Source of the DNA: Sphingomonas sp. So64.6b
GTDB lineage: Bacteria > Pseudomonadota > Alphaproteobacteria > Sphingomonadales > Sphingomonadaceae
Length of the DNA: 64,000 bases
Reading direction: 5' to 3'
NCBI RefSeq assembly: GCF_014171475.1
Contig: NZ_CP048817.1
Location: 4,556,501 to 4,620,500, forward strand
Within the stretch, counting starts at the first letter, position 1, and each line of letters opens with the position of its first letter. The notes under the pieces are model-generated. The model had not been told where the DNA came from, did not search any database, and saw only the letters and a list, made by a program, of their open reading frames with translations. Below, in pieces: positions 35,468 to 59,679 of the stretch. Both the position numbers and the translations under genes were made by a program.

Positions 35468-35471
35468 CAAC

Positions 35472-36329: not shown

Positions 36330-36385
36330 ACAAGGCTCGCTATGTTTGGAATTTGAGAACAGCGCAGTCGGCCGACGGGTGGCCC

Positions 36386-39839: not shown

Positions 39840-40132
39840 GGGGCAACTCCGTCTGCGGAAAAGGCAGGCGCGGCTTCGGTCATATGATAGGTTGCCCGGA
39901 TTCGATGCGTCACCGTGTCGCGGGCCACGTTGAACCAGCGGCGGCATCCTGCGTTGTGCTGCCATCGTTCGAGGTGCTCGCCGCGCGGGTTGATCTTCTC
40001 ACTCAGATATTTGCCCCAGGAGACGTCGTCGATTGCCTCAGGCGGATCCGGACGGATGATATGGCTCTGGCCGCCGCACCGAAACTCGAGCTCGTCGCGG
40101 GGACCGCACCAGGGACAGGAAATTTGCAGCAT
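39836..40132 (-). CDS. soxD: Sarcosine oxidase delta subunit
   Basis: 98 residues. All four zinc ligands known for this subunit are at the expected positions: C6 and C9 in SCPWCG, H59 and C63 in QHNAGCRRW. The small subunit stabilises the complex. It lies 9 nt after the soxB stop and overlaps the soxA start by 4 bp. Confidence 0.95.
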   Translation of the reverse strand: MLQISCPWCGPRDELEFRCGGQSHIIRPDPPEAIDDVSWGKYLSEKINPRGEHLERWQHNAGCRRWFNVARDTVTHRIRATYHMTEAAPAFSADGVAP

Positions 40133-40141
40133 GAACGATCC

Positions 40142-41392
40142 TCAGTGCGCGATGCCGGAGCCGGCCGCTTCGTCGATGAGAGCGCCCGTTGTGAAGCGGT
40201 CGAGGGAGAAGGGTTTGGCGAGCGGATGCGGATTAAGCGTGGCGAGCTGGTGTGCTAGCATCGTGCCGCCGACCGGGATGGCCTTGAAGCCACCCGTGCC
40301 CCATGCGCAGTCAAGAAAAAGCCCCGGCACCGGGGAGGCTCCGATGATCGGGCTGCTGTCGGGAACCACATCGACGATACCCGCCCAATGGCGGAGCAGC
40401 CGGACCCGGCCGAGCGAGGGATATTGCGCCGCGACGGCGCCCAGCACGTTGCTCATCACCGGCATGTTTCCGCGCTGCGCATAGGAAGGGTAGAGGTCGA
40501 GCCCGCCGCCGATGACGAGCCCGCCTTTGTCCGACTGGCTCATATAGACGCCCGTCGCAGGAGACAGAATAACCGTGTCGAGAACGGGCTTCAACGGCTC
40601 CGACACAAAGGCCTGAAGCGCGTAGCTTGTGATCGGCAGGCGGAAACCGGCCATCTCGGCAAGCCGGCTCGAGTGGCCCGCCACAGCCACGCCGATCTTC
40701 CGCGAGGCGATCCGCCCGCGCGATGTCTCAACCCCGGTCACGGCGCCATCGGGGCCACGTTGAAAACCCGTGACCTCGCAATTCTGGATAATGTCGACCC
40801 CCAGCGCATCGGCGGCCCGGGCATAACCCCATACCACCGCATCGTGCCGGGCCGTGCCCGCGCGTTTTTGGATTAGGCCACCGAGGACGGGAAACCGTGC
40901 AGCTGGCGAAATGTCGAGAATCGGCACGCGGCGCCCGATTTCGGCCGGAGACAGCGTTTCGGCATCGACGCCGTTTAGCCGCATCGCGTTCATCTGCCGA
41001 TTTACGAGCTCAAGATCGTGGAGGCTGTGCGCGAGCGAGATCATCCCGCGCTGGCTGAACATCACATTGTAGTTGAGCTCTTTCGACAGGCCCTCATAGA
41101 GCTTGAGCGAATGCTCGTACATCCGGGCGCTCGCGCGATAATAATAGTTCGAGCGGATCGCTGTGGTGTTGCGACCGCTGTTGCCACCGCCGATCCAGCC
41201 CTTTTCCAGGACCGCGACGCGGGTGATGCCGAATGACTTCGCGAGATAATAGGCGGTCGCGAGGCCATGGCCACCGCCACCGATCACAATAACGTCGTAG
41301 CTCTGCTGGGGGTCGGGCGAGCGCCATGCGGGTTTCCATCCGCGTTGCTCCTTCAGCCCCTCTTTGAAAACGTTCCAGGCGGAATAGCGCAT
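40142..41392 (-). CDS. soxB: Sarcosine oxidase beta subunit
   Basis: 416 residues, a DAO-type flavoprotein that binds FAD and a covalent FMN. The FAD loop is DVIVIGGGGHGLATAYYLAK; IGGGNSGRNTTAIRSNYYY follows; the FMN-attachment block is ARHDAVVWGY (H183), and the C-terminal FAD contact is FLDCAWGTGGFKAIPVGG. It demethylates sarcosine. MRYSAWNVFKEG from ATG 41392, with GAGAG 5 nt upstream, is the usual N-terminus; the longer frame to 41524 lies in the leader. It is the first gene of the sox-purU-folD-DUF3422 operon. Confidence 0.95.
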   Translation of the reverse strand: MRYSAWNVFKEGLKEQRGWKPAWRSPDPQQSYDVIVIGGGGHGLATAYYLAKSFGITRVAVLEKGWIGGGNSGRNTTAIRSNYYYRASARMYEHSLKLYEGLSKELNYNVMFSQRGMISLAHSLHDLELVNRQMNAMRLNGVDAETLSPAEIGRRVPILDISPAARFPVLGGLIQKRAGTARHDAVVWGYARAADALGVDIIQNCEVTGFQRGPDGAVTGVETSRGRIASRKIGVAVAGHSSRLAEMAGFRLPITSYALQAFVSEPLKPVLDTVILSPATGVYMSQSDKGGLVIGGGLDLYPSYAQRGNMPVMSNVLGAVAAQYPSLGRVRLLRHWAGIVDVVPDSSPIIGASPVPGLFLDCAWGTGGFKAIPVGGTMLAHQLATLNPHPLAKPFSLDRFTTGALIDEAAGSGIAH

Positions 41393-41537
41393 ATCATCTC
41401 TCGCCAATCTGGTGCGGAATTCGGATCGCGCTGACCCCCGGCGCATCTGAAGTCGGTTGCTGATTTGTGGTGCAAGTCCGCGCTGTGCTGCCATCGCCGC
41501 AGGCGCTTCCTCGCAAGTTTTCAACGAATCTGATGTT

Positions 41538-42500: not shown

Positions 42501-43250
42501 TCAACCCCCATCCGTCCGCTGACAAACCCTTACGCGCCAATCGTAATGGTCCGCTGCGAGCACCGCGCACGCTGGGTTTCGAAAATGCTGCGCGAGCGAC
42601 AGGCGCCACCGCGGCGTGCTGTTGGCAGTGGTCATATGCGGCGTCTTGCTGTGATGAAACGTCACGCTACCGGCCTCAATCGGGCAGCCAATCACCTCGG
42701 CGTCCTGCGCAATATCGCAGACCAGCAGGTCGCTTGCCATTTCTGGAGGGTTGCAATGCTCGATCAGGCGTCGATGCGCACCGCGCGCGAAGTGCATGCA
42801 GCCATTTTCCGGTCCAACGGCGTGGAAGGCAGTCCAGCAGGTGATGCCACAATCCTCCAGCGTGCGCCCCCAATAGCCTTCGTCCTGATGCCAGGGCGTC
42901 GGTGCGCCGACGCCGGGCGGCTTACCGAGAAACTGTTCATACCAGAACGCCATATCCTGGCGCATCAGCGCGCCGCCGAACCGGCCGGCCCAGGCGCGGA
43001 AACGCGATTGCGGCAGCCAGGGAAACAGCCGGTCGACACCGCTCTGGACGATCCGATAAGCACGCTGATCAAGCGGCTCACCGCGTCGCCAATCCCAGTC
43101 CTTTCCCCAGTCCGCCGGGCGCTGCGTCATGTCCGCACCCATCGCGACAAGCGCCGCGACTTCCTCCGGGTCGATTGCATCGCGCACGACCAGAAAGCCG
43201 TCAGCTTCGAAGCGCAGTACGTCCTGCGTCGTTGGTTTAGGATAAGGCAT
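42501..43250 (-). CDS. Phytanoyl-CoA dioxygenase (PhyH) family protein
   Basis: 249 residues, a double-stranded beta-helix Fe(II)/2-oxoglutarate oxygenase. It opens with RFEADGFLVVRDAIDPEEVA. The metal H-x-D is PWHQDEGYW, the distal His is in FHHSKTPHMT, and the 2-oxoglutarate Arg is in STPRWRLSLAQHF. The substrate is unknown; PhyH members hydroxylate acyl-CoAs, betaine-like compounds or natural products. Divergent from an AraC gene across 114 bp, which is probably its regulator. Confidence 0.87.
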   Translation of the reverse strand: MPYPKPTTQDVLRFEADGFLVVRDAIDPEEVAALVAMGADMTQRPADWGKDWDWRRGEPLDQRAYRIVQSGVDRLFPWLPQSRFRAWAGRFGGALMRQDMAFWYEQFLGKPPGVGAPTPWHQDEGYWGRTLEDCGITCWTAFHAVGPENGCMHFARGAHRRLIEHCNPPEMASDLLVCDIAQDAEVIGCPIEAGSVTFHHSKTPHMTTANSTPRWRLSLAQHFRNPACAVLAADHYDWRVRVCQRTDGG

Positions 43251-44349: not shown

Positions 44350-45228
44350 TTATGCAGCGCTATCGCCATTCTGCCCATTGGTCGCATCGGCGGTCGCTGC
44401 TTCGCTTTCGGCCAGCAGTAAATTGACCAGCCGGGTGTGTACGGTGGCACGCGACCATACGATCCCGATCCGCCGTCCGACGACGGGCGTCGGCAGCGCT
44501 ATCCGGGCGAGCGAAAGTCCGGCCGGCCAAGGCGGTGCCCAATCGGGCACCAGCGCCACGCCGAGGCCGCGATCCACCATCACGGCAATGGCATTAAGGG
44601 CGTTGAGTTCGAAGCGCTCCCTTGGCGTGATCCCGACCTTGCGCAGATAATCCTCGGCGCTGCGGCCGCCCCATTGATGCCGGTCGTAGCGAATCAGGGG
44701 TTCGGTACGGAGGAGATCATGCGGATCGCGGTGCGCGAGATGCCGGGGCGCCAGCATGATCAGCGCCTCTTCGCGCAGCATGCACCATTCGCACGTCTTC
44801 GGAATCGGATAGGGTGCTTCGAGCACGAAAGCGGCATCGAGCTCGCCGGCCTCGACCGCAGCGTAAAGCTGCGCTGAGCTGGCCGACTGGATATGCACGT
44901 TGATCGCCGGGGATTTGCCGATCAGCCGGGCGAGGATATCCGGCAGCATGCCACTGAGCGGCGTCGTGCACGCGCCCAGACGCAGATTGCCGCTGATGGC
45001 ATCATCATGAGCGGTGTTGCGCAACTCGGCCGCGTTGCGAAGCAGTTCGCGCGCCTGGCCGAGAATTCGCCCGCCCTGCTCGGTCATGCGCACGGTGCGG
45101 CCGACGCGAACGATGAGCGGCGTGCCGAGCTCCCGTTCGAGCGCATGGAGCTGTTGCGCGACCGCCGAAGGGCTGACGTTGAGCGCCCGCGCCGCCGCCG
45201 CCATCGAGCCGCGATCGACCACCGTCAC
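44350..45228 (-). CDS. LysR-family transcriptional regulator with an uncertain start codon
   Basis: The usual HTH (GSMAAAARALNVSPSAVAQQ) and effector domain are present; 292 residues from GTG 45228. But the family's conserved first nine residues (here IDLHFLKTF) are encoded in frame immediately upstream, up to a stop at 45259-45261. The only codon at the expected initiation site is ATC (45253-45255), preceded by a perfect AGGAGG (45263-45268) with 7-nt spacing. Either ATC is used as a rare start or an ATG has mutated. The 5' end lies inside the 3' end of the symporter gene, so the two are coupled. It probably controls this sugar-acid locus. Confidence 0.82.
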   Translation of the reverse strand: MTVVDRGSMAAAARALNVSPSAVAQQLHALERELGTPLIVRVGRTVRMTEQGGRILGQARELLRNAAELRNTAHDDAISGNLRLGACTTPLSGMLPDILARLIGKSPAINVHIQSASSAQLYAAVEAGELDAAFVLEAPYPIPKTCEWCMLREEALIMLAPRHLAHRDPHDLLRTEPLIRYDRHQWGGRSAEDYLRKVGITPRERFELNALNAIAVMVDRGLGVALVPDWAPPWPAGLSLARIALPTPVVGRRIGIVWSRATVHTRLVNLLLAESEAATADATNGQNGDSAA

Positions 45229-45236
45229 GAAAGTTT

Positions 45237-47663
45237 TCAGGAAATGGAGGTCGATGGCTCATCCTCCTGTGTGCGCCGCCGTCCGAACCGGCCAATCGGG
45301 ACGATGAGGCCTTCCAGCGAACGCTGGGGCGCCGGAAAGAACAGGCTCGCGACATAACCCACCGCGATCGAGACGAAGATCGCGATCGCCAGGTAGAAAT
45401 AGGGATGGACGAGATGAAAGATGCTCGCCGCAAGCGTGATCGCCGATGCCGCGACGATGCCGATCCCGACACCGGCGGCGTTGGCGCGGCGGGTGAACAT
45501 GCCGAGCGTATAGGCGCCCGCACAGCTTCCACCAAGCACGCCGAACAGCTCAATCGACAGGTCGAGCAGCGAATGGATGTCGAGCTGCGACAGCAGCACT
45601 GCCAGTCCGATGCCGACCACGCCGACTAGCACTGTCATCCATTCGGCAAAGCGCACGGTCTTTTTCTGTGTCGGATTCTTGGCGAACTTCTCGTAGAAAT
45701 CGACTGACAGCAAGGTTGCGACGCTGTTGATCGTGCCCGACAGCGTGCCCATTGCCGCCGCGAACAGGCCAGCGATGATCAGCCCGGTCACGCCGTGCGG
45801 CAGTTCCATTCCAATGAACGAGGGGAACACGGCATCGATCGGCAGAAGCGGATCGAGCCGAGCCGGATGCGCCTGGTAATATGCGAACAGCACCGTACCG
45901 ATAACGTAGAAGATGAGGCCCCCGGGCAGCAGCACCGCCGCGAATAGCCAGATCGAGCGCCCGGCGTTCTTGTCCGACGAAGTCGCCAGCGCGCGCTGCA
46001 TCAGGATCTGGTCCTTGGGGAAGGTCAGCACGGTGTCGAATAGGATAAGGATGAGGAAGCCCCACAAGGTCGGCTGGGTGAAATCGAAGCTGGTGTTGAT
46101 CATATGGGTCTTGTCGGACGCCATTGCGGCCTGCTCGATCGCGGTAAAGCCGAGCGACCAGACGATATAGCCGATGGCGAAGAGCGCGCCGCCCATCAGC
46201 ACGATAACCTGGATGAAATCGGTCCATATCACCGCGCGCATCCCGCCGAGCGCCGTGTAGATGATGGTGCAGACGCCGAGGATGCAGATGCAGCCGATCA
46301 CGTTGAAGCCGGTGATCGTGCCGATCGCTAGCGCCGGCAGGAACAGCACCACGCCCATCCGCCCGCCGACATGCATCGCGATGCACAGCGCGCTCGCGAG
46401 CATGCGGATCGCGGGATGGAAGCGCTGCTCGAGATAGTTGAACACCGAGACGAGGTTGAGTCGGCGCAGCGCCGGGACCACCCAGATCGCAACGAACATC
46501 AGCCCGAACACGGTGACGATCTTCGAGGTCATATATTCCCAATTGGTCTCGAACGCCTTGGCCGGGATGGCGAGATAGCTGATCGAGCTGGTATTGCCGG
46601 CGAACATGCTGACGCCGGCCGCCCAAAAGGGAATGGAGCGGCTGCCGAGGAAGAAGTCGCTGGTCGAGTTGAGCTTGGCGCGGCGGTACATATAGCCGCC
46701 AACCCCAAGCATCGCTGCCATATAGACAATGATGATCGTCCAATCGAGGAGATCGAGCGCGCGGCGCTGCCGCTCGAGCTCGGCGACGGCGAAGGTCATC
46801 CGGCCGCCGTCGGCATGAGCGAGAACCAGCCCGTTACCCGCCGCCACGCCCGCATCGACACCGCCCGTCGCGCGATAGGGCATAGCCGCCCACGCGGCCG
46901 TGATCGTGTGGAAGGCGTACAGTTGAGTGCCCCGCTTCGTATCGGACACGAGATACAGGATATGTGCCTGGCCGATCGCGCGTGCTGCACCGGCCAGTAC
47001 CGGGCCGGGGGTAGAGCCGCGTCCCTTCCATCCGTCCTTGTCGCCAAACGCCAAGAGCTGCTCGGCCGCCCCATTGCGCAGCGTCAGGTAGAGCACGCCA
47101 TTCTGCACGGCGAGGGTCGTGGGCGTGCCGGCGCCGGGCCATGGCGCGCGCACGCGCCATGACGGGTCACCCAAAGTCAGGTCGAGCACCCGCGCGGTAC
47201 CGCCGATGCTCCGGCCGGCGATCGTTACGGTTTCGCCGCTCACCACGGCTTGGGCGACCGTCAGCGGTTGGGGCAGCGCGGGAAGCGTACGCAACGATAG
47301 CGCGCCGTTATCGAGCTGGAGCATCGCCACATTGCTCATGGCGTGCGCATCTCCCCGGAGTAGCACGGCGCGCTGGCCATTGCTGGCGACAATGCGCGGC
47401 TTCCGGTCGGCGGGCAGGCGCGAACGATCGAGCGGCTGCCAAGCTCTGCGGTCCGCGGCGAGCGCCCAGGCGCCGTTAGGGCCGATCACCACGGTGCGCC
47501 CGCCAAGTGCCACCATCGTCGCACCGTCTCCGGCGGCGAGCGGAGGCAGGTTGGAGGCCTTGACCAGCGAGACGCTATCGTCCGCGGACGCGGGCAATGC
47601 GGCACCGGCGAGGCAAAAAGCGAGCAGGACGATCAACCGCCGAACGATACGGGAAAAAGCCAT
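45237..47663 (-). CDS. Kelch-domain / sodium:solute symporter (SSS) fusion protein
   Basis: 808 residues. The signal-like segment LIVLLAFCLAGAALPASADD leads into about 275 residues of kelch-type repeats (DGATMVALGGRTVVIGPNGA, VVSGETVTIAGRSIGGTARV). Next comes a long SSS transporter (DWTIIIVYMAAMLGVGGYMY, SMFAGNTSSISYLAIPAKAF, LGGMRAVIWTDFIQVIVLMG). The kelch part would face the periplasm. Kelch proteins such as NanM are sugar mutarotases, so this domain may present one anomer to the permease (inference). It lies 1 nt overlapping the CitE-like gene stop and upstream of the LysR gene. Confidence 0.88.
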   Translation of the reverse strand: MAFSRIVRRLIVLLAFCLAGAALPASADDSVSLVKASNLPPLAAGDGATMVALGGRTVVIGPNGAWALAADRRAWQPLDRSRLPADRKPRIVASNGQRAVLLRGDAHAMSNVAMLQLDNGALSLRTLPALPQPLTVAQAVVSGETVTIAGRSIGGTARVLDLTLGDPSWRVRAPWPGAGTPTTLAVQNGVLYLTLRNGAAEQLLAFGDKDGWKGRGSTPGPVLAGAARAIGQAHILYLVSDTKRGTQLYAFHTITAAWAAMPYRATGGVDAGVAAGNGLVLAHADGGRMTFAVAELERQRRALDLLDWTIIIVYMAAMLGVGGYMYRRAKLNSTSDFFLGSRSIPFWAAGVSMFAGNTSSISYLAIPAKAFETNWEYMTSKIVTVFGLMFVAIWVVPALRRLNLVSVFNYLEQRFHPAIRMLASALCIAMHVGGRMGVVLFLPALAIGTITGFNVIGCICILGVCTIIYTALGGMRAVIWTDFIQVIVLMGGALFAIGYIVWSLGFTAIEQAAMASDKTHMINTSFDFTQPTLWGFLILILFDTVLTFPKDQILMQRALATSSDKNAGRSIWLFAAVLLPGGLIFYVIGTVLFAYYQAHPARLDPLLPIDAVFPSFIGMELPHGVTGLIIAGLFAAAMGTLSGTINSVATLLSVDFYEKFAKNPTQKKTVRFAEWMTVLVGVVGIGLAVLLSQLDIHSLLDLSIELFGVLGGSCAGAYTLGMFTRRANAAGVGIGIVAASAITLAASIFHLVHPYFYLAIAIFVSIAVGYVASLFFPAPQRSLEGLIVPIGRFGRRRTQEDEPSTSIS

Positions 47664-48529
47664 TATTCCTTGTCCGCCATCGCAAGCGTCGCGCGTGCCT
47701 GCTCGATCGCGGGCCGGTCGATCATCCGCCCGTCGAGCTGAAAGGCGCCGCGTCCGATCGCAGCGGCTTCATCCGCGGCAGCGACAATCCGGCGCGCCTG
47801 ATCCAGCGCATCCGCGCGCGCGCCGAACACAGCGTTGGCAATAGCGATCTGCCGGGGATGAATGCAGCTCTTGCCGAGATAGCCAAGTGCGCGAGCCTGC
47901 TCGGCTTCAAGGCGAAAGCCCTGGTCGTCGGCTATGGCCGCATAGGCACCGTCATAGGCGAAGGCGCCGCCCTCGCCGGTGGCGAGTCGCATGGCGAGCA
48001 TCACGGCATGGGCGCTGCCGAGTGCCCGGCGATCGATCGCGAGCGCTTCGAAAAGATCGTTGAGCCCCAGTTGCAAGCCGGCGATGCGGGGATGTGCCGT
48101 CGCGATCTCGGCTGCCCGCCGCAATGCGCGGGGTGTCTCGATGGTGATCAGCAGGCCGATCGGGCGGGTAATGGCGGCAGCTTGCTCGGCGCGTTCAAGC
48201 GCGGTCACCGCGGTGACGACATCGTCGGGATCTTCAAGCTTGGGGAGGTTGATCAGAGCGACATCGGGCAGCGCCATCGCAGCGATATCAGCGGCAAAAT
48301 GCGGCGAGTGAGGCGCGTTGACGCGCACGATCACCTGCTTGCCGTTCGCCGCCAGCGCGGTGCGCGTCGCTTCGCTGGCCAGGAACCCGGCTATTGCACT
48401 GCGCGCTGCGGTCTTGCCGCCTGTCGTCACGGAGTCTTCGAGATCGAACGAGATGGCATCCGCCTCGCTCGCCAGTGCCTTGATAAAAAAATCGGGCCGT
48501 GCGCCCGGCACGAACAATTTGCTGCGCAT
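47663..48529 (-). CDS. HpcH/HpaI aldolase / CitE-like acyl-CoA lyase
   Basis: 288 residues. The CitE pattern is clear: MRSKLFVPGARPDFFIKALA, ADAISFDLEDSV (metal Glu/Asp), VIVRVNAP, LLITIETPRALRRA and GLQLGLNDLFEALAIDRRAL, ending GYLGKSCIHPRQIAIANAVF. Family members cleave malyl-, citramalyl- or 3-hydroxy-3-methylglutaryl-like CoA thioesters or 2-oxo-hydroxy acids with Mg2+. With the class III CoA-transferase on the opposite operon, a CoA-thioester substrate is plausible. First gene of the minus-strand unit; divergent from the receptor across 241 bp. Confidence 0.87.
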   Translation of the reverse strand: MRSKLFVPGARPDFFIKALASEADAISFDLEDSVTTGGKTAARSAIAGFLASEATRTALAANGKQVIVRVNAPHSPHFAADIAAMALPDVALINLPKLEDPDDVVTAVTALERAEQAAAITRPIGLLITIETPRALRRAAEIATAHPRIAGLQLGLNDLFEALAIDRRALGSAHAVMLAMRLATGEGGAFAYDGAYAAIADDQGFRLEAEQARALGYLGKSCIHPRQIAIANAVFGARADALDQARRIVAAADEAAAIGRGAFQLDGRMIDRPAIEQARATLAMADKE

Positions 48530-48770
48530 CGTTGTCGCATCTCCCCTGTCGGACGCATGATAGCCGTAGCAGTGCGCGACGCGCCAGTGCGGGGGCGGGC
48601 ATCAATTGCGTTTGGACGACAGTATTTGTGCTGTTTTCCTTAACGGTTGGGCTACCGCTCTCGTTGAAACCGCACAAAATGTCGTGTCTGAACGCAGCCG
48701 GGGCCCGGTTTAACGTGTTGCGCCGCGCGTCTAATGATGGCGCCAATAAAAAAATAGGGAGGGGATTATC

Positions 48771-50966
48771 ATGCAAATGCTTGCACGTCTGGCGCTCGGC
48801 ACGGCTCTCGCCGGAACGATGTGCTCCGCCGCTTACGCCGGCTCGCTGCCTTCCGGCACGGCCGCCGACGCAGCCGCGCAGACACCGGACCAGACCGCCA
48901 CAGCGCCCGAAGAGGACACGACGCCAATTGTCGTCACCGGCACGAGATCGCCCAAGGCAATCGACAAGATCGCCGGCGCGATCACCATCATCTCTCCCGC
49001 TGAAGTGCAGCGCTCGCTGACCATCACCGAGGATGCGACCGCAGTGCTGGCCCGTACCGTCCCGGGCTATTCGGAATCGAACCAGACGCTCAACACGCTA
49101 GGCGAGACGATGCGTGGTCGCACCGCGCTCTATATGTTCGACGGCATCCCGCAGTCGACGCCGCTACGCGACGGCAGCCGCAACGCGACCTTCACCGACA
49201 TGGCGACGATCGAGCGCATCGAAGTGATCGGCGGCGCATCTGCGTCCGAGGGCATCGGCGCGGCCGGCGGTATCATCAACTATATTTCCAAACGTGCGAC
49301 CGAGCCCGGTACGCATTTTGGCGTGACCGGCCGGTTCGGCACCCAGTTCGACGACGACAGTGCGACCTGGAAGATTGGCGGAACGCTTAGCCACAAGTCG
49401 GGCGGGATCGATGTCTTCGCTGCTGGATCCTATCTGACGCGCGGTATCACCTACGACGCTCATGGCCGCCGTATCGGGATCAGCGCATCGAGCTCGGTTG
49501 CCGACTCGAAGCAATGGGATGGTTTCCTGAAGATCGGCACCAATTTCGGTGACGGCGATTCCCAGCGCGTCGAGGGTGTCGCGAGCTATTTCAAACTCAA
49601 GGCCAACGGTAATTATCACTATGTCGCCGGCAGCCGCACACTCGGCATTCCCGACACGGCGGAGCCCGGGCCGCCGACGGATCCGATCACGGGCCAGCTC
49701 CTGTTCGCCCCTGATTTCAACAAGTTCCAGCAATATGCGCTGAATTACAGCAACACTTCGTTGTTCGGCGGCAGTCTTGTGGCCACGGCCTATTATGCGA
49801 AGCAGGAGATGTGCTTCCCAGGCGATAACGGGATCGACAAGCAGGATCCACGCATCTCGCCGGGTGTCATCTTCGACCAATCGGAAATCCTGTCGAAGAA
49901 ATACGGACTGCGCACCTCCTACACGCGCCCCGACTTCCTGCTGCAGGGTTTTGAACTGCGTTTCGGCATCGACGCGGTGCATGATCAGACTCAGCAATAT
50001 CTCGCCCTGACCAATCGCGTTTGGGTGCCGCCGCTCAACTATACGAGCTTCGGCCCCTATGTGCAGCTGGCCTATGATCTCGGTCCAGTGACGCTGAGCG
50101 GCGGCTGGCGTCACGAAGACGGCAAGGTCAAGGTCGACGATTATACGACCACTTTTTACCGCAACAGCGTGTTGGTGAAGGGCGGCAACCTCAAATACAA
50201 GAATGACCTGCTCAACGCCGGCATCATCGGTCGCTTCGGCGGTGGATTCTCGGCCTTTGCGACCTATGGTGAAGGCTTCACTCTGCCCAATGCCGGTATC
50301 CCGCTGCGCAACGTGAACACGCCGGGCAAGACAGTCGAAGGCCTGTTCGATCTCCAGGCGGTGGTCTTCAAGAACAAGGAGGTCGGATTCAACTGGCGCG
50401 GCCGGATGGGTAGCGTCGGCGTTTCCTACTATCAGTCCAAGTCCGACCTGGGCTCAAGCCTCACGGTCGATCCGATAACTAAGGACTATGTGCTCAACCG
50501 CCGACCGATCAAGATCTATGGCTTCGACGTGACGGCGGAGTTCCGCCCGACCTCCACAGTGCGATTGAACGCCCTGTTCAGCCATGTGGTGGGCAAGACA
50601 TCGGCTGCCAATGGCGTGACCGATCCGCTCGATGTGACGCTCGGTGTGCTCAACATCGCGCCCGACAAGGCCAATGGGCAGATATCCTGGCAGTTTACGC
50701 CAGAGGGGTCGATTTCGTTCGGCGCGACCAGCTTGTTCAGTCGCAACATCAATAAGGGCAAATCGACCGAGGAGCACACCAAGGGGTACACGCTGTTCGA
50801 TGCGACGGCCGGCTACCGGGTCAATGATGTCGGCACCTTCTCCCTCGGTGTCGAAAATCTGTTCAACAAGTTCTATTTCCTGTCGTCGTCGCAGATCGAT
50901 ATCTACCAGAACTATTTTGCAGGTCGCGGGCGCACGGTGTCGCTGACCTTCCACCGCGACTTCTGA
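48771..50966 (+). CDS. TonB-dependent outer-membrane receptor
   Basis: 731 residues. The signal peptide MQMLARLALGTALAGTMCSA ends in AYAG. The plug starts at TPIVVTGTRSPKAIDKIAGA and has IERIEVIGGASASEGIGAAG. The barrel ends RTVSLTFHRDF. The plug resembles the classical siderophore type more than the other three receptors here. GGGAGGGG is 7 nt before ATG 48771. It begins an operon with a kinase, two glycosidase-like enzymes and a CoA-transferase, so the cargo is more likely a glycan or glycoside than iron (inference). Confidence 0.92.
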   Translation: MQMLARLALGTALAGTMCSAAYAGSLPSGTAADAAAQTPDQTATAPEEDTTPIVVTGTRSPKAIDKIAGAITIISPAEVQRSLTITEDATAVLARTVPGYSESNQTLNTLGETMRGRTALYMFDGIPQSTPLRDGSRNATFTDMATIERIEVIGGASASEGIGAAGGIINYISKRATEPGTHFGVTGRFGTQFDDDSATWKIGGTLSHKSGGIDVFAAGSYLTRGITYDAHGRRIGISASSSVADSKQWDGFLKIGTNFGDGDSQRVEGVASYFKLKANGNYHYVAGSRTLGIPDTAEPGPPTDPITGQLLFAPDFNKFQQYALNYSNTSLFGGSLVATAYYAKQEMCFPGDNGIDKQDPRISPGVIFDQSEILSKKYGLRTSYTRPDFLLQGFELRFGIDAVHDQTQQYLALTNRVWVPPLNYTSFGPYVQLAYDLGPVTLSGGWRHEDGKVKVDDYTTTFYRNSVLVKGGNLKYKNDLLNAGIIGRFGGGFSAFATYGEGFTLPNAGIPLRNVNTPGKTVEGLFDLQAVVFKNKEVGFNWRGRMGSVGVSYYQSKSDLGSSLTVDPITKDYVLNRRPIKIYGFDVTAEFRPTSTVRLNALFSHVVGKTSAANGVTDPLDVTLGVLNIAPDKANGQISWQFTPEGSISFGATSLFSRNINKGKSTEEHTKGYTLFDATAGYRVNDVGTFSLGVENLFNKFYFLSSSQIDIYQNYFAGRGRTVSLTFHRDF

Positions 50967-50985
50967 CCTGGGAGCAAGACCTGCC

Positions 50986-51969
50986 ATGACCACGCGCCAC
51001 GGCACCGTGCTGGTGGCGGGATCCGCGAATGCCGATTTCGTCGTCCGGGCGCCGCGCATACCGGCGCCCGGCGAGACGGTGCTCGGTGAGGACCTCGCGA
51101 TCATTCCTGGCGGCAAGGGCGCCAACCAGGCGGTCGCCTGTGCACGGGCCGGAGGTGGTGCGACGCGCATGCTCGTCGCGTTGGGCGAAGACACGCTGGC
51201 GCCGATGATTGAGACGTCGTTGCGCGCGGCTGGCGTGATGCTCGACGTCATAACGTCGGACAGGCCGACCGGGGCGGCGCTGATCACCGTGTCGCATGAC
51301 GGGGAAAATGCCATCACCGTCGCGCCGGGGGCCAATGCGCAGCTGCGGCCAGGCGACCTGCCCTCGCTCGACGGGGTCAGTCATTTGCTGATGCAGCTGG
51401 AAATCCCGCTCGACACGGTCATGGTCTTTGCCGCCGCCGCACGCGCGGCAGGCTTGACGGTAATGCTCAACGCGGCGCCTGCGCGGCCGCTGCCCGAGGA
51501 ACTGCTGGCGACGCTCGACATACTCGTCGTCAACGAGGAGGAACTCGCGCGCATCGTTGGTGACGACGGATCGGTCGCCGATCGCCTCGCTGCGACCGGC
51601 GTGCCCTGCGCGATCGTGACGCTGGGCGGGCGGGGCTGCTGCGCGCTGGCTGAGGGCGCATTCTTCGTTCAGCCCGCCTTTGCGGTTTCGCCAATCGACA
51701 CCACGGCGGCGGGCGACACGTTTTGCGGCGTGCTTGCGGCGACGCTCGCCGCCGGTCACGATCTTACACAGGCGCTGCGCGCGGCAAGTGCCGCCGGTGC
51801 CCTGGCGACCACCCGCACGGGAGCGCAGACCAGCATTCCTACCGCTGCCGAGGTCGCCACCCTGCTCGATACGCCGAATGACCCCGGCCGAGCCGCCGCG
51901 CTGGCAGACTATTGCGGCGTGAACCACTATGCCGGGATCACCGATTCCCGCCCGCAAGGCCAGTCATGA
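50986..51969 (+). CDS. PfkB-family carbohydrate kinase (ribokinase-like)
   Basis: 327 residues. The N-terminal signature is PGGKGANQAVACARAGG, and the C-terminal PfkB signature DTTAAGDTFCGVLAATLA carries the catalytic Asp and anion-hole loop. It phosphorylates a sugar with ATP, probably one released by the two downstream enzymes. It starts 19 nt after the receptor stop and its TGA overlaps the next ATG by 4 bp. Confidence 0.88.
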   Translation: MTTRHGTVLVAGSANADFVVRAPRIPAPGETVLGEDLAIIPGGKGANQAVACARAGGGATRMLVALGEDTLAPMIETSLRAAGVMLDVITSDRPTGAALITVSHDGENAITVAPGANAQLRPGDLPSLDGVSHLLMQLEIPLDTVMVFAAAARAAGLTVMLNAAPARPLPEELLATLDILVVNEEELARIVGDDGSVADRLAATGVPCAIVTLGGRGCCALAEGAFFVQPAFAVSPIDTTAAGDTFCGVLAATLAAGHDLTQALRAASAAGALATTRTGAQTSIPTAAEVATLLDTPNDPGRAAALADYCGVNHYAGITDSRPQGQS

Positions 51970-54110
51970 CGCACTCCCCGCATCGCACCAGCAGCGACAT
52001 CAAATTCTCCCACGCGCTGACGGGGCCGTTTCTGCCGCAGCCCGGCAAGGTGCCGGGCTGGCCGTTCGCCGAGATGGGGCGATGGAAAATCGATGTCGAC
52101 GGCGCGATCGACGATTGGCTGCAGGGCCTGCGCGAATGGCGCACTGAGCACCTCATCCGGATCGGCTTCGACGACGCGGCCTATCGCCGGCCTGAGCTGG
52201 CCTGGGCGCAACGCAACTTCGTCCATGTCCAGATGATGGCTGAGGACCGCTACCTCTATGATCCGGACACCGGTCGCTACACGGTCGACCGTTATCTCGA
52301 CGATCTGGAGGCGCGCTTCGGCGGGGTCGACAGCGTGCTGCTGTGGTATATCTATCCCAATATCGGGATCGACGATCGCAACCAGTTCGACCTGATCGAG
52401 GCGCTGCCCGGCGGGATCGAGGGCGTGTGCGGCATGGTCGACGATTTTCATGCGCGCGGCGTCAAGGTGCTGTTGCCGACCATGCCGTGGGACAATGGCA
52501 CCCGCCCCGCCGGCAGGCCCGACTGGGAACGGATGGCCGATCTGGTCGTCGCGACCGGCGCCGATGGCATCAACGGCGACACCTATAGCGGCGTGCCGCG
52601 CGCCTTTCTCGAAGCGTGCGACGCGCGCGGCCGCTCGGTCGTGCTGCAGCCAGAGACGACCGCCCAGGCCGGTGACCATATCCTGTCATGGAATGTGCAG
52701 AGCTGGGCCAAGCGCATTCCGACCGACACCATCCCGGCCGTGCTCAAGCTGAAATGGCTCGAGCCGCGGCATATCATCAACATCGAGAACCGCTGGGGCC
52801 GCGAGCGCAACAACGACCTGCAACAGGCCTTCTTCAACGGCATCGGCTACAATGCCTGGGAGAATGTCTTCGGTTTCATGAACCAGCTGACGCCGCGTGA
52901 CGGCGAGACGCTGCGCCGCGTCGCGACCGTGCAGCGCCGCTTCGCCCCGCTGCTGGTCAGCGCCGATTGGACGCCCTTTGCGCACACGCTTCAGGCCGGG
53001 GTGTTCGCCAGCCGCTTTCCGGGCGAGGGCATGACGCTGTGGACCATCGTCAACCGCAATGAATATGCGGTGGACGGCGAGCAGGTCGTCCTGCCGCATG
53101 CCGCGGGCGCGTCCTATTTCGATGTGTGGAACGGCACGTCCCTGACACCGCGTATCGCCGATGATCAGGCGGTGTTCGCGTTGCCGCTCGAAGGGCGGGG
53201 GTTCGGCGGCATCCTTGCTATGACCGATGCAGCGCCCGAATGGCTGCCCGGCTTCCTCGACACAATGCGTGCCCACGCCGCGACGCCGCTCGCCGAATAT
53301 TCGGCCGAGTGGCGCTCGCTGCAGCAGGAGCTCGTCGCCATCGCGCCGACGGCGCGAGCCGAGACGCTGCCCGAGAGCATGGTGGATATTCCCGCCGGCA
53401 CGTTCGACTTTGCCGTGCATGGCGTGGTGATCGAGGGCTACGCCGCCGAGGGCGTCGACGTACAATATCCATGGGAGCCGAACGCCCGGCGCCATCACCG
53501 CCAACGGCTCGACGTCGCGGCCTTCGCAATAGACCGTTTCCCGGTGACCAATGCCGCGTTCAAACTGTTCCTAGATGCGAGCGGCTATCACCCGGCCGAT
53601 GCGCATAACTTCCTGCTTCACTGGCAGGATGGTGCGCCGCCGTCGGGATGGGGCAATAAGCCGGTCACCTGGGTGTCGATCGAGGATGCTCGTGCCTATG
53701 CCGCCTGGGCGGGCAAACGCCTGCCGCGCGAGTGGGAATGGCACTACGCCGCGCAAGGGCGGGACGGTCGTCGTTACCCTTGGGGTGATGATTGGAATTC
53801 CGCTGCGGTGCCCGAACCGGCCTGTGGTCGGACAATGCCGGTTCCCGCCGATGTCGACGCGCACCCGGCCGGCGCAAGCCCGTTCGGAGTGATGGATCTG
53901 GTCGGCAATGTCTGGCAGTGGACCGACGAATATCGCGACGAGCATGTCCGCGGCGCGGTGCTGCGCGGGGGCAGCGCCTATCAGCCGCAGACCTCGCACT
54001 GGTATTTCCCTCAGGCCTATGCGCTCGATCAACATGGCAAGTTTTTGCTCATGTCGCCAGGCAAGGACCGCTCGGCGGGGATCGGATTCCGTTGTGTCGT
54101 CGATCGCTGA
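51966..54110 (+). CDS. Fusion of a glycosidase-like barrel with a SUMF1/FGE-like domain lacking the catalytic cysteines
   Basis: 714 residues from ATG 51966 (ATGA overlap with the kinase). Residues 20-455 look like a TIM-barrel glycoside hydrolase with no family I can name: FHARGVKVLLPTMPWDNGTR, TGADGINGDTYSGVPRAFLE, RSVVLQPETTAQ and YNAWENVFGFMNQLTPRD. D and E in these strands could be the acid pair. Residues 470-714 are a formylglycine-generating-enzyme-like domain (MVDIPAGTFDFAV, RFPVTNAAFKLFLDAS, FGVMDLVGNVWQWTDEYRDE, AVLRGGSAYQPQTSHWYF, GIGFRC). The Cys pair that follows RGGS in true FGEs is missing, so it is probably a carbohydrate-binding or structural module. No signal peptide; cytoplasmic. 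Confidence 0.8.
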   Translation: MTHSPHRTSSDIKFSHALTGPFLPQPGKVPGWPFAEMGRWKIDVDGAIDDWLQGLREWRTEHLIRIGFDDAAYRRPELAWAQRNFVHVQMMAEDRYLYDPDTGRYTVDRYLDDLEARFGGVDSVLLWYIYPNIGIDDRNQFDLIEALPGGIEGVCGMVDDFHARGVKVLLPTMPWDNGTRPAGRPDWERMADLVVATGADGINGDTYSGVPRAFLEACDARGRSVVLQPETTAQAGDHILSWNVQSWAKRIPTDTIPAVLKLKWLEPRHIINIENRWGRERNNDLQQAFFNGIGYNAWENVFGFMNQLTPRDGETLRRVATVQRRFAPLLVSADWTPFAHTLQAGVFASRFPGEGMTLWTIVNRNEYAVDGEQVVLPHAAGASYFDVWNGTSLTPRIADDQAVFALPLEGRGFGGILAMTDAAPEWLPGFLDTMRAHAATPLAEYSAEWRSLQQELVAIAPTARAETLPESMVDIPAGTFDFAVHGVVIEGYAAEGVDVQYPWEPNARRHHRQRLDVAAFAIDRFPVTNAAFKLFLDASGYHPADAHNFLLHWQDGAPPSGWGNKPVTWVSIEDARAYAAWAGKRLPREWEWHYAAQGRDGRRYPWGDDWNSAAVPEPACGRTMPVPADVDAHPAGASPFGVMDLVGNVWQWTDEYRDEHVRGAVLRGGSAYQPQTSHWYFPQAYALDQHGKFLLMSPGKDRSAGIGFRCVVDR

Positions 54111-55998
54111 CCTCGCCCTCACGCCGGCTGTTATCGCGAAGCTGCCCGGAGCAATGACCTTTGCTGCGCCTGACGCGGTAGCGCTGGGCGGCGTGCTCGG
54201 CGAGGCGCTCGCCGCCAATCATCGCGGCCGGCTGTCGCGTTTCATTGTCGACGAGACGAGTCCGGCCATCGCGCTGTTCGAAGCCGCCGAGACGTGCTGC
54301 AATATCGCCGGCGACTGGTATGGCGAGCATGCCGGCAAATGGCTTCAGGCCGCGACGCGCGCTGCCATCCGCACCGGCGACAAGGCTCTGCTGGAGCATG
54401 TCCGCCATGTCGCCGATCATCTGGTCGCGCTGCAGGATAGCGATGGGTATCTCGGCAACTACGCGCCCGAGCGTCGTTTCACCCAGCCGCAGCCGGCCAG
54501 GCCGGAAAGCTGGGACGGGGCGCCCGCTTTGCGCACCTGGGACATATGGACTCATAGCTATCTGATGCTCGGGCTGCTCGAGCTGGCTCGCCATACCGGC
54601 GAGCGCTGCTATCGCGACGCTGCCGCGCGGATCGGCGATCTGGTATGGCGCACGCTCAGCGAAGGGCAGGTTACGATCACCGGTCTCGGCAATCATTTCG
54701 GCCTGTCGGCGAGTGTCGTGATTGACCCCGCCATTGAACTCCATGCCGCGACCGGTGAACAACGATATCTTGACCTCGCGCGCCTCGTGCTCGGCCAGAT
54801 CGATCGCGAACCGCGCAACGCGCTTTTGTCGCGCGCTCTCGCCGGCGCGGACGCATCGGAAATCGCCACCGGCAAGGTCTATCAATTGCTATGGAATCTG
54901 GTCGGCATCGCCAAGCTGTACCGCGCCACCGGCGAAGGCGACTATCTGCGTGCGGTCGAGCACCTTTGGCGCAACGTGCGTGACCATCACTTGACGCTGG
55001 GCGGCGCGCCATATGGCGGCATCGCGCATCGTTCGCGCGAGGTGTTCAACCCTGCCGGCGTGTTCAGCCCGTACGGCTATGTCGAGACCTGCTCGACCAT
55101 GGCGTGGATCCAGCTCAACCGCGAACTGCTGGCGATCACCGGGGCGGCGCACTATGCTCAGGAAATCGAACGCACCGCCTATAACGACTTGCTCGGTGCT
55201 CAGGCCCCGAATGGTGAGGACTGGTGCTATTACAGCTTCCCCAACGGCCGCCGCGTTCACACCACCTATTGGCGCTGCTGCAAGTCGAGCGGGGCGGTCG
55301 CGCTCGAGGAACTGGCGCCGGTCGCGTACGGCGTGACGGCGGACGGTGCCGTCGCGGTGAACCTGCTCGGCCCGTCGGTGGCGAGGCTGGGGACGACTGC
55401 CGGCGCGGTAATGATCGAGCAGCGGACCCGCTACCCGTTCGACGGCGCCATCGATCTGCTCGTAACGCCGGAGCCCGCTGAGTCCTTTGCGATCGATATC
55501 CGCATTCCTGACTGGGCCGAGGGCGCGACACTGGCCGTGAACGGGGCGCCGGGGACGGATGTGGTTGCCGGCCTCTATGCCCGCATCGCCCGGACCTGGC
55601 AGGCCGGCGACATCGTGACGCTGCGTCTTCCATTGGTACCGCGCCTGCACCGCGGCATCGCGCGCAACGTGCAGGAGTCACTGGCGCCGGGCGGCGAGCC
55701 GGTGCGACAGGAAGTACTGCACTTCGACTATGCCGCGATCACGCTTGGCCCGCTGGTTTATGCCACCGGCCTGGTCGATGACTTCAAGGTCGAAGAAACG
55801 ATCCGTCTGCCCGATGCTCCCGCTAAAGACTGGCTGACCGTCATACCGGCCAGCGGGGAAGCACCGGGCGACACCGTGCGGTTGAGCCCACAGGGGCGCG
55901 CGCCCATCGACTATGCGCCCTGGTACCGCGCCGGCGGCATGGCGGATGGGACGTGGCGGCTGACCTGGCTGATGTTGGCACCGGAGGGATCGTCATGA
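54094..55998 (+). CDS. GH127 (DUF1680) glycosidase, beta-L-arabinofuranosidase-like
   Basis: 634 residues from GTG 54094, whose first codons overlap the preceding gene's end by 17 bp. The (alpha/alpha)6 barrel shows LQDSDGYLGNY, ARHTGERCYRDAAARIGDLV and NPAGVFSPYGYVETCSTMAW. The GH127 zinc/catalytic residues are visible: E331 and C333 in VETC, and C395-C396 in YWRCCKSSG. Family members release beta-L-arabinofuranose, and one clade acts on the branched acid sugar aceric acid. No signal peptide, so it works on imported oligosaccharides. The frame upstream of 54094 is a shadow. Confidence 0.87.
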   Translation: MSSIADLALTPAVIAKLPGAMTFAAPDAVALGGVLGEALAANHRGRLSRFIVDETSPAIALFEAAETCCNIAGDWYGEHAGKWLQAATRAAIRTGDKALLEHVRHVADHLVALQDSDGYLGNYAPERRFTQPQPARPESWDGAPALRTWDIWTHSYLMLGLLELARHTGERCYRDAAARIGDLVWRTLSEGQVTITGLGNHFGLSASVVIDPAIELHAATGEQRYLDLARLVLGQIDREPRNALLSRALAGADASEIATGKVYQLLWNLVGIAKLYRATGEGDYLRAVEHLWRNVRDHHLTLGGAPYGGIAHRSREVFNPAGVFSPYGYVETCSTMAWIQLNRELLAITGAAHYAQEIERTAYNDLLGAQAPNGEDWCYYSFPNGRRVHTTYWRCCKSSGAVALEELAPVAYGVTADGAVAVNLLGPSVARLGTTAGAVMIEQRTRYPFDGAIDLLVTPEPAESFAIDIRIPDWAEGATLAVNGAPGTDVVAGLYARIARTWQAGDIVTLRLPLVPRLHRGIARNVQESLAPGGEPVRQEVLHFDYAAITLGPLVYATGLVDDFKVEETIRLPDAPAKDWLTVIPASGEAPGDTVRLSPQGRAPIDYAPWYRAGGMADGTWRLTWLMLAPEGSS

Positions 55999-57167
55999 CC
56001 GCGCGATCGTTGTTCAGCAGTGCCAGGCGCACTGGTCCGGCCGGGCCCCTCAGCGGGGTCAAGGTGCTCGACCTCAGTGCTTATATCGCCGGCCCCTATG
56101 GCTGTACCCTGCTCGCCGACCAAGGTGCAGATGTGATCAAGGTCGAGCCGCCCGGCGGCGACAATCTGCGCCAATATCCGTCCACCCTGCAGGGCGAGAA
56201 CCGCGCCTTTCTCGGCGTCAATCGCAGCAAGCAGGGCGCCATGCTCGACCTCAAGAACGCAGAGGATCGCGCGGTATTACTCGCTCTCGCCGACGAAGCC
56301 GATGTGCTGGTGCATAATTTTCGCCCCGGCGTGCCCGAGCGGCTGGGGATCGATTTCGACCAGCTCAGCGCCCGCAATTCCAGGCTGATCTATTGCGCAG
56401 TGACCGGTTATGGCGAGGAGGGGCCGCTGCGCGACCGTGCCGGTTACGATCAGGTGCTGCAAGCAATGACCGGCATGTGCGTGCTTCAGGGCAAGCCGGG
56501 ATGTGAGCCCGAGCTCACCTATGGTTCTCCGGTCGACTATTATGCCGCAGCGCTGGTCGCCGCCGGCGTCGCCTCGGCGCTGTTCGAACGCGAGCGCAGC
56601 GGGCGCGGGCAGTTCGTGGGCGTGTCGCTGCTGCGCAGCGCGCTCACCATGCAGTCGGCGCGGCTTATCTGTGCCCAGGGTGAAACGCTCGACATCTGGC
56701 GCGACATGCGCTCGGGCGGCATTACGGGTCTCTACCCCACCGCTGACGGGCATATTTATCTTTCCGCCAATACGCCGCGCTTCTGGCATGCGCTGTGCCG
56801 GCTAACCTGCCTGGCCGAGCTCGGCGATGACCCCCGCTACGACAGCGTCAAGAAGCGCGCGGAGCACGCCGGAGAGATCGTTCCACGTCTAAAGGAAGTC
56901 CTGATGACGCGTAATGCGCGGGAATGGGAAGAACTCCTGGCCGATCAGGTGCCTTGCTCCGTCGCGCGTCCGGTCGAGGACATGTTCGATCATCCACAGG
57001 TTCTGGCCGAGGAATTGATCGCGCCGATCGCGCATGACGCGCTCGGCAGCTATCGCGGTGTAACGCGGCCGATCAAATATGGGCGCACACCCGGACCCGA
57101 TCCCTTTGCCGCGCCTCTGCTCGGGCAGGACACGATGCGAGTGAAACGAGGGCCGGCAGCCGACTGA
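55995..57167 (+). CDS. Class III (CaiB/BaiF) CoA-transferase
   Basis: 390 residues from ATG 55995 (ATGA overlap with the GH127 stop). Typical blocks: GVKVLDLSAYIAGPYGCTLL, DVIKVEPPGGDNLRQYP, NRSKQGAMLDLKNAEDRAVL, and SPVDYYAAALVAAGVASALF, in which the Asp is the residue that forms the glutaryl/aspartyl-CoA intermediate. It transfers CoA between organic acids. A CoA-transferase at the end of a glycosidase operon is unusual and suggests that the sugar is turned into an acid and then a CoA thioester, perhaps for the CitE-like lyase. Confidence 0.88.
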   Translation: MTARSLFSSARRTGPAGPLSGVKVLDLSAYIAGPYGCTLLADQGADVIKVEPPGGDNLRQYPSTLQGENRAFLGVNRSKQGAMLDLKNAEDRAVLLALADEADVLVHNFRPGVPERLGIDFDQLSARNSRLIYCAVTGYGEEGPLRDRAGYDQVLQAMTGMCVLQGKPGCEPELTYGSPVDYYAAALVAAGVASALFERERSGRGQFVGVSLLRSALTMQSARLICAQGETLDIWRDMRSGGITGLYPTADGHIYLSANTPRFWHALCRLTCLAELGDDPRYDSVKKRAEHAGEIVPRLKEVLMTRNAREWEELLADQVPCSVARPVEDMFDHPQVLAEELIAPIAHDALGSYRGVTRPIKYGRTPGPDPFAAPLLGQDTMRVKRGPAAD

Positions 57168-58809: not shown

Positions 58810-59679
58810 TCACCTCGCGTGATTCCGGAAAACGGTGCTGACCGCCGCCATGTCGAGCGCGCCGCCTCCATCGTCGATCACCGCTTCGAAAAGTTGCCGG
58901 CTGCGATCCAACAACACGGCATCGGCACCAGCGGCGGCCGCGGCCTCGGATACCAATGCTGCGTTCTTGCAGACGTCTTTGATTGCCGCCTCCGGCGAGA
59001 AGTCGCGCCGAACCATCTTATCAAGCTTGGCCATGGCCACATCGCTGCGCAATGGCCCCGAGCGGATGATCTCCTGGAACAGCGCCAAATTCACCCCCAT
59101 CGCGACCGCGAGATTAGCAGCCTCGGCCAGCGAAGCGATCGTGGCGATCAGATAGAGGTTGACTGCAAGCTTCATAGCTGTGGCGGAGGGGACCGGGCCG
59201 ATGACCCGCATTTCGCGGCACATCGGCGCGAGCAGCGGGCGCGATCGCTCGACCGCCTCGGCGTCGCCGGCCAGCATCGCCACCAGCGTGCCGCGTTCGG
59301 CAGGGCCGCGCGAGCCCGAGACCGGCGCTTCCACAAACGCGCCGCCGCCCGCGTGAATTTCGGTTTCGAGCGCGCGTGAATATCCAGGCGCATGCGTGCC
59401 CATGTTGATGATCAACTTGCCGGCGACGCGGTCGCCGAGCGATGCATCAGCCCGGCCGAGCACGAAATCGGCGGCTGCATCGTCGCGCAACATCAGGATG
59501 ATCGCGTCGCACGCCGCAAAGAGGGCCTTGGGTGTATCCACCGCGTTGGCGCCAAGGGCAGCTAGTCTCGCGCGGGGGGGGGCGGACCGGTTATAGACGG
59601 TCAGATCTTGGCCAGCGTGCCTGAGACGGGCAGCCATTGGCTCCCCCATCAGACCCAAACCTGCAAACCCCAAACGCAT
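58810..59679 (-). CDS. NAD(P)-dependent beta-hydroxyacid dehydrogenase (3-hydroxyisobutyrate / tartronate-semialdehyde reductase family)
   Basis: 289 residues. The N-terminal Rossmann loop is MRLGFAGLGLMGEPMAARLR. The substrate loop is FVEAPVSGSRGPAERGTLVA and the catalytic Lys is in MKLAVNLYLIATIASLAEA (KLxxN motif). It interconverts a 2- or 3-hydroxy acid and a semialdehyde. Near the sugar-acid locus it could reduce tartronate semialdehyde or a similar intermediate (inference). Same strand as the GlxA gene, 240 bp upstream. Confidence 0.9.
   Translation of the reverse strand: MRLGFAGLGLMGEPMAARLRHAGQDLTVYNRSAPPRARLAALGANAVDTPKALFAACDAIILMLRDDAAADFVLGRADASLGDRVAGKLIINMGTHAPGYSRALETEIHAGGGAFVEAPVSGSRGPAERGTLVAMLAGDAEAVERSRPLLAPMCREMRVIGPVPSATAMKLAVNLYLIATIASLAEAANLAVAMGVNLALFQEIIRSGPLRSDVAMAKLDKMVRRDFSPEAAIKDVCKNAALVSEAAAAAGADAVLLDRSRQLFEAVIDDGGGALDMAAVSTVFRNHAR

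Follow-up and report, generated by a model that had tools for sequence, protein, structure and literature searches.

Pairs of class III CoA-transferases and CitE-type lyases catalyze the malate and citramalate steps of the 3-hydroxypropionate cycle, in which a hydroxy-dicarboxylate is activated by CoA transfer and split by retro-Claisen cleavage. The ribose-scavenging (rus) loci of Bacteroides bring together a ribokinase, a transporter and glycosidases; we know of no CoA-transferase/CitE branch there. Counterparts of both sets of genes stand together in an eight-gene block (positions 44350-57167) of a 64,000-nucleotide stretch of the Sphingomonas sp. So64.6b genome (NZ_CP048817.1, positions 4,556,501 to 4,620,500; the whole stretch is referred to as the window). 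Here, in contrast to the 3-hydroxypropionate cycle, the presumed activation and cleavage pair is encoded together with transporters, glycosidases and a kinase for sugars, and its enzymes score below the curated equivalog cut-offs. With a receptor, an inner transporter, a glycosidase, enzymes for sugar processing and a local regulator, the conserved block has the gene content of a TonB-dependent carbohydrate utilization locus. Loci resembling polysaccharide utilization loci, such as the carrageenan regulon of Zobellia with its GH127 genes (PMC5698469), likewise unite transport, GH127, catabolic enzymes and a local regulator. In contrast to that regulon, no sulfatase was recognized in the block, which has an acid branch via CoA-transferase and CoA lyase and a fusion protein consisting of an orphan domain and a domain related to formylglycine-generating enzyme (FGE).

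This gene arrangement is conserved as a unit, far beyond chance. We tentatively read the locus (probability roughly 0.45) as a system for TonB-dependent uptake and catabolism of a small conjugate, often an ester, in which a furanose-type pentose is linked to a hydroxy-dicarboxylic acid. It may represent a new pathway in which a natural sugar conjugate is dismantled by an unrecognized orphan/FGE-like enzyme family and by GH127 enzymes of a clade with novel specificity; the sugar would be processed via the kinase and the acid via CoA transfer and CitE-type cleavage; we hold this with similar reserve, at slightly less than even odds. The preliminary description of this DNA had suggested that glycan cleavage is joined here to CoA-thioester chemistry in one gene set, which the conserved co-occurrence supports. 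It had also stated that no described pathway combines these parts, and none was found in openly licensed papers with our queries, several of which were strict.

A scan with one genome per species gave 187 relatives of the fusion protein, and the best 80 of these 187 (62-92% identical in the fusion protein) were studied together with flanking regions of at most 10 kb per side. All eight genes are present together in 60 of the 80 loci, counts here and below including stretches truncated at the end of a contig or flank. Taken singly, the fusion gene is found in 80 loci, the receptor in 79, GH127 and CoA-transferase in 78 each, the symporter in 76, LysR in 75, the kinase in 74 and the lyase in 70, with median identities to the window genes of 50-69% across the eight genes. 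The CitE-like, CoA-transferase and GH127 genes thus recur beside the fusion gene, as the preliminary description had expected of a real system. In nine of the ten loci without a lyase gene the stretch stops short of its place, and only in L095 are lyase and symporter truly missing from the stretch. Both arms of the block are co-linear on one strand and in identical order in 45/80 loci.

The same association is seen at the level of whole genomes. Among 298 genomes of the family (the window's own, G000, included), full-length fusion protein is encoded in five (G000, G155, G072, G122, G223). Exactly the same five possess the CoA-transferase (E <=1e-90) and, at >=55% identity, the lyase, with one further genome (G244) having a lyase at 40%. 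Such an exact four-of-four overlap among 297 genomes (own genome excluded) has p ~3e-9 if genomes are independent, which is not quite true. The orphan domain is present in 4/398 sampled genomes of the phylum, and the system is therefore rare but wide. In G122 the locus lies on a sequence that matches plasmid pSFD01 of Sphingopyxis sp. FD7, which is circular and typed as mobilizable; the locus spans the origin of the record, with lyase, symporter, LysR and a COesterase gene on the other side.

Furthermore, the carriers span two phyla, and many come from plants and soil; those in culture include Sphingopyxis sp. FD7, Dyella jiangningensis and Luteibacter rhizovicinus. The order of the L110 genome (Opitutaceae, Verrucomicrobiota) contains the fusion gene in 4/273 genomes, L110 itself counted. 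All four Opitutales loci possess genes for the symporter (incomplete in two of them, where the stretch ends), receptor, GH127, ribokinase-like kinase, fusion protein, lyase and CoA-transferase, reordered and on both strands. Their CoA-transferases (78-80% identical among Opitutales) represent another branch of class III, with 31% identity in L110, and L110 has a LacI regulator within the locus, where a search for a LysR relative found none. The persistence of the roles despite changes in gene order and even in the proteins strongly supports a single pathway. An antisense open reading frame (ORF) of the Opitutales loci was rejected as a gene; in L110 it is the shadow of the LacI gene. In one Opitutales genome a GH13-like protein is encoded between fusion and lyase genes (L131, 11085-12608). 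A 33% homologue of the fusion protein is found on a Spirosoma plasmid near GH28, GH36, PhyH and ThuA genes, and the features annotated up to 16 kb away include no lyase, CoA-transferase or GH127; the fusion protein therefore occurs outside this pathway too.

In the window, the LysR-type regulator (44350..45228, minus strand; Pfam HTH_1 and LysR_substrate, true start maybe slightly upstream), symporter and lyase genes diverge from the plus-strand arm that runs from the TonB-dependent receptor (48771..50966; PF00593, PF07715) to the CoA-transferase. The preliminary description had confined the gene set to 45237..57167; all of its named genes are present and, according to domain searches, of the classes given, LysR lying just outside that range. 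From the kinase onward every start overlaps the stop before it (51966/51969, about 54094/54110, 55995/55998), as had been noted and as coordinates and DNA confirm, with ATGA overlaps at the kinase/fusion and GH127/CoA-transferase junctions. Because of these overlapping ends, kinase, fusion protein, GH127 and CoA-transferase are probably co-translated.

Between the divergent units lies a conserved promoter element (48669..48697, plus strand), a candidate operator of the local regulator, which occurs once in the window and, with up to 3 mismatches allowed, once in the entire genome. Twelve sphingomonad sites served to build a position weight matrix (PWM), which was then applied to 66 other loci. 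In 61/66 of these the top-scoring site falls in the 500 bp before the receptor gene, compared with 17/660 Markov-1 random copies; the five others are L052, L066, L078, L110 and L111, and in L066 and L078 the best site precedes the esterase gene instead. Real scores are 8-33 (random maximum 19.8, mean 9.5). Sites scoring at least 8 within 400 bp upstream were found for the receptor in 63 of 64 scorable loci, for the lyase in 21/51, for the CoA-transferase in 12/65, for the PF00756-type esterase in 2/4 and for the beta-lactamase-type esterase in 1/58, and none before the symporter (56 loci), LysR (64), kinase (60), fusion (67) and GH127 (65) genes, while random stretches of the same loci gave 51/1340. 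A Xanthomonadales form of the element, sought in 13 genomes, has one match each in nine, always inside the locus, and no match in the other four, i.e., in three sphingomonads, which have the other form of the site, and in the Roseateles of L066. The local regulator presumably binds to this element.

The glycosidase (about 54094..55998, plus strand; PF07944, 146.7 bits, and PF20736) belongs to GH127 and possesses the Zn site and the acid/base glutamate of this family, the assignment of the latter requiring a one-residue gap in the alignment. Residues were regarded as conserved if their columns are >=98% identical in the 69-81 aligned sequences of each protein; for GH127 these are E320, E335-T-C337 and C399-C400 (numbered from 54082; 79 sequences). 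No signal peptide was seen. The best PDB match is the six-hairpin glycosidase 6ex6, which we take to be the aceric-acid hydrolase BT1003. The window protein scores 107.8 bits with the model for aceric acid hydrolase (NF049879; cut-off 950), and this function was rejected. It has the Zn-coordinating glutamate and three cysteines in common with the beta-L-arabinofuranosidase HypBA1 and, given the one-residue gap, also the acid/base glutamate (mechanism of the Zn/Cys site: PMC10850190 and PMC10728902); in contrast to HypBA1, its clade has invariant motifs of its own, e.g., GDWYGEHAGKW. GH127 contains both beta-L-arabinofuranosidases (PMC10850190) and 3,6-anhydro-D-galactosidases (PMC5698469), and because of the latter, family membership does not name the sugar. 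Note also that a second GH127 gene, outside the window (G000:C1:4705807-4706979), is far closer to the family model (405.9 bits).

The CoA-transferase (about 55995..57167, plus strand) is a class III (CaiB/BaiF) enzyme (PF02515, 381.3 vs cut-off 23.3 bits), and the aspartate of its GYD motif (D166 of the 55953 ORF), which we assume to be catalytic, is conserved (77 sequences). Its best NCBIfam models are those for succinate-glutarate, succinyl-CoA:mesaconate and oxalate CoA-transferases, although the top score, with the succinate-glutarate model (NF052585), is 192.3 bits against a cut-off of 750. The lyase (47663..48529, minus strand) is a member of the HpcH/HpaI (CitE) superfamily (PF03328, 124.1 vs cut-off 25 bits) with malyl-CoA lyase and CitE as best PDB matches and conserved R69, E131, D158 and D271 (69 sequences), presumably with the roles of the corresponding residues in this superfamily. 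It falls short of the models for citrate lyase beta subunit (TIGR01588, 168.5 bits vs cut-off 443.4) and RipC (NF038242, 119.2 bits vs cut-off 375). No curated NCBIfam cut-off is reached by either the lyase or the CoA-transferase. Judging from the pairing of the two enzymes and the chemistry of their families, the acid is most likely a 3-hydroxy-dicarboxylate of the malate, citramalate or 3-hydroxy-3-methylglutarate (HMG) type.

The kinase (50986..51969, plus strand; PfkB family, PF00294) is ribokinase-like: its closest PDB chains are ribokinases, and G42-Q48, D17, E139 and D244, to which we assign their usual roles in ribokinase-type enzymes, are conserved (75 sequences). With the ribokinase model TIGR02152 it scores 262.6 bits, i.e., below the cut-off of 299.65. 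The symporter (45237..47663, minus strand) consists of a sodium:solute symporter domain (SSF, PF00474, 140.6 bits, residues ~337-732) and an N-terminal extension of ~300 amino acids. It had been described as a kelch-SSS permease; the permease part is confirmed, whereas the first 300 residues of the window protein have no Pfam match. In L110 the corresponding extension has a match to NANM (E 2.7e-6) that does not reach the cut-off of this family but is consistent with a kelch-type propeller; the extension is thus possibly NanM-like.

The fusion protein is strongly conserved (233/714 columns >=98% identical in 81 sequences). One hundred and twenty listed homologues share 69-88% identity across 88-100% of its length, and 5362 are found at E <=0.001, which may include matches by the FGE-like half alone. 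Its N-terminal orphan domain (51966..53340, plus strand, ~458 amino acids) shows no signal peptide. A Pfam search with 19 members (E <=10) gave nothing convincing (four families, each matching one member, E 0.092-0.3), nor did a comparison with PDB sequences (two matches, E 0.055 and 1.9). Alignment by hhalign with single GH36 and GH13 sequences gave probabilities of 0.2% and 1.0%, a weak test at Neff 1.8. Conserved acidic residues include D205, E230, E266, E274 and E299, and the domain is a possible glycosidase. The C-terminal half (53341..54110, border approximate; PF03781, 123.7 bits) belongs to the same sequence family as FGE, EgtB, ToxD and CalU17. Unlike in these proteins, there is no cysteine pair, and the orphan domain is fused to it: the segment after RGGS (RGGSAYQPQTSHWYFPQ) is without cysteine, and C710 is the sole cysteine among the conserved columns of the fusion protein. 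As the two active-site cysteines, at the positions that we presume for them in FGE, are absent, a formylglycine-generating function was rejected. The designation 'barrel-FGE fusion' therefore holds for the two-part structure and the FGE-like half, whereas 'barrel' is unproven, since neither Pfam nor PDB sequences gave a convincing match for the orphan domain.

Besides these eight genes, an esterase-type gene is present in 73/80 loci, i.e., the beta-lactamase type (PF00144) in 59, COesterase (PF00135) in nine and the PF00756 type in five. Representatives were assigned by Pfam and the remainder by similarity (>40% identity); this filter excludes a 27% match in L045, which keeps its COesterase. 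The esterases examined carry export-like leaders, some of them similar to twin-arginine translocation (Tat) signals, as judged by eye. The occurrence of three unrelated esterase folds in the same loci points to an ester in the substrate, and the frequency of these genes suggests that the acid and the sugar are distinct moieties in ester linkage.

According to our preferred reading, the receptor would transport the compound into the periplasm, where in most lineages an exported-looking esterase would trim it. The symporter, with its possible propeller domain, would carry the product, a reducing sugar or a glycoside, across the inner membrane. In the cytoplasm, GH127, whose glycosidase chemistry is suggested by the conserved Zn/Cys site, and probably also the orphan/FGE-like fusion would break glycosidic bonds. 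The ribokinase-like kinase would phosphorylate the freed pentose, and the class III CoA-transferase would transfer CoA, probably from succinyl-CoA, to the freed acid. The CitE-like lyase would then cleave the resulting 3-hydroxyacyl-CoA in a retro-Claisen reaction to acetyl-CoA and a keto compound, e.g., glyoxylate, pyruvate or acetoacetate, if both enzymes follow the chemistry of their families. As the promoter element suggests, the unit would be switched on by the local regulator (LysR here, LacI in L110).

Several observations weigh against this reading. The window's own locus has no adjacent esterase gene, and neither do seven of the 80 loci (L033, L036, L039, L042, L043, L044 and L092, the stretches of L044 and L092 being cut short). 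Searches of the own genome for the PF00144 and PF00135 types revealed just distant relatives, i.e., a PF00144 protein (G000:C1:4629092-4630318) with 40% identity to the L048 esterase and a PF00135 protein with 37%, or 48% over part. The former, ~15 kb past the locus and 8.6 kb beyond the window end, is the nearest candidate for the missing esterase. The esterases may also merely strip acetate or feruloyl groups. The kinase gene is missing from six loci (L060, L061, L069, L096-L098), a real absence for these stretches, which fall in three places of the tree; each of these six genomes has another ribokinase-like gene (36-43% identity). Kinase, lyase and CoA-transferase all score below NCBIfam equivalog cut-offs, and their families thus do not fix the substrates. 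In the PDB, the CoA-transferase matches formyl-CoA transferase (10uh), YfdE and Rv3272 before succinate-HMG CoA-transferase. The orphan domain is without known fold, and the 80 loci are mutually related rather than independent. Many promoter-element scores overlap with the random maximum of 19.8, so that the evidence is the position of the site and not the single scores.

Of the other explanations, ribose scavenging survives best, although we regard it as unlikely. In such a system the GH127 clade would act as a ribofuranosidase, the kinase would be a true ribokinase and the CoA arm would take the aglycone of a natural riboside. The conserved ribokinase-type residues and the ribokinases among the closest PDB chains fit this proposal, as does a transaldolase gene 3' of the CoA-transferase in 9/80 loci, which maybe is a chance housekeeping neighbour. 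However, the kinase falls below the ribokinase cut-off and is lacking in six loci, and we know of no ribosidase activity in GH127. The transaldolase gene is on the same strand in all cases (L055, L084, L091, L097, L104, L105, L107, L109, L111) and may hint at pentose phosphate metabolism.

Quite unlikely, in our view, is the scheme of the preliminary description, in which GH127 frees a branched, aceric-acid-like sugar acid that is itself joined to CoA and cut by the lyase, while the kinase serves a second sugar. The conserved gene set and the similarity of GH127 to 6ex6 agree with it. We know, though, of no CitE enzyme that accepts a polyhydroxy sugar-acyl-CoA. The esterases, which suggest a separate acid and sugar in ester linkage, have no obvious place in it, and the ribokinase-like kinase and the absence of the FGE cysteines speak against it as well. 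Among the extra ORFs scanned (many were not) no further enzyme of the rhamnogalacturonan II (RG-II) type was recognized. The score of 107.8 bits is far from the cut-off of 950 for aceric acid hydrolase, and GH127 is broad, e.g., with the 3,6-anhydro-D-galactosidases (PMC5698469). This part of the preliminary description thus lacks support.

Side chain D of RG-II consists of beta-L-arabinofuranose on the ulosonic diacid 3-deoxy-lyxo-heptulosaric acid (DHA), and its degradation, with GH127 removing arabinose, the fusion protein removing DHA and the HpcH/HpaI protein being a DHA aldolase, is improbable. A NanM-like propeller of the symporter, indicated by the weak match in L110, would suit ulosonic acids, and GH127 includes beta-L-arabinofuranosidases (PMC10850190). 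In this case, however, the lyase groups with CoA lyases and not with keto-acid aldolases, an aldolase of this kind needs no CoA-transferase, and a ribokinase-like kinase is ill-suited to L-arabinose. Finally, the possibility that two unrelated operons (LysR/SSS/CitE and receptor to CoA-transferase) are neighbours by chance, conceivable from the divergent arms in the window, is refuted by the co-occurrence data, i.e., the one-strand co-linear order in 45 loci, the rearranged but still joint occurrence in all four Opitutales, the shared genome distribution of fusion protein, CoA-transferase and lyase, and the promoter element before both arms (21/51 lyase and 63/64 receptor upstream regions).

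Further genes were noted around the block and inside related loci. A PF00756 esterase gene (32136-33092) lies 12 kb before the locus beside another TonB receptor (29810-31972) and adjoins FAD oxidase and amidohydrolase genes, i.e., another uptake cluster. The single genome match of the promoter element (up to 3 mismatches) is neither at this gene nor at the PF00144 relative. The sarcosine-oxidase-type cluster that follows (33270-41524), with SoxA-like (36900-39965), DAO-type oxidoreductase (40142-41524), FolD-like, formyltransferase and DUF3422 genes, is apparently unrelated. Homologues (42-43%) of a PhyH-type dioxygenase (42501-43250) are located between symporter and LysR genes in L070 and L080, and L102 has a 26% match; as it is inside the locus only in these two of 80, it was not counted as a member. 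The tartronate-semialdehyde-reductase-like gene (58810-59679) and the two AraC genes on either side of the locus have no match in the 80 loci and were excluded. A protein with ThuA, propeller and cytochrome c domains, possibly a periplasmic sugar dehydrogenase, is encoded in 9/80 loci, between fusion and GH127 genes in L080, L081, L089, L093, L094, L102 and L106 (here with a lipoprotein-like leader), as well as in L103 and, partially, in L057.

The locus reveals a conserved protein domain family without a Pfam entry and points to a possible new specificity within the cysteine-glycosidase family. With a tightly bounded and widely shared gene set, a locus-specific promoter element and cultured carriers, the substrate of this system can be found by direct experiment.

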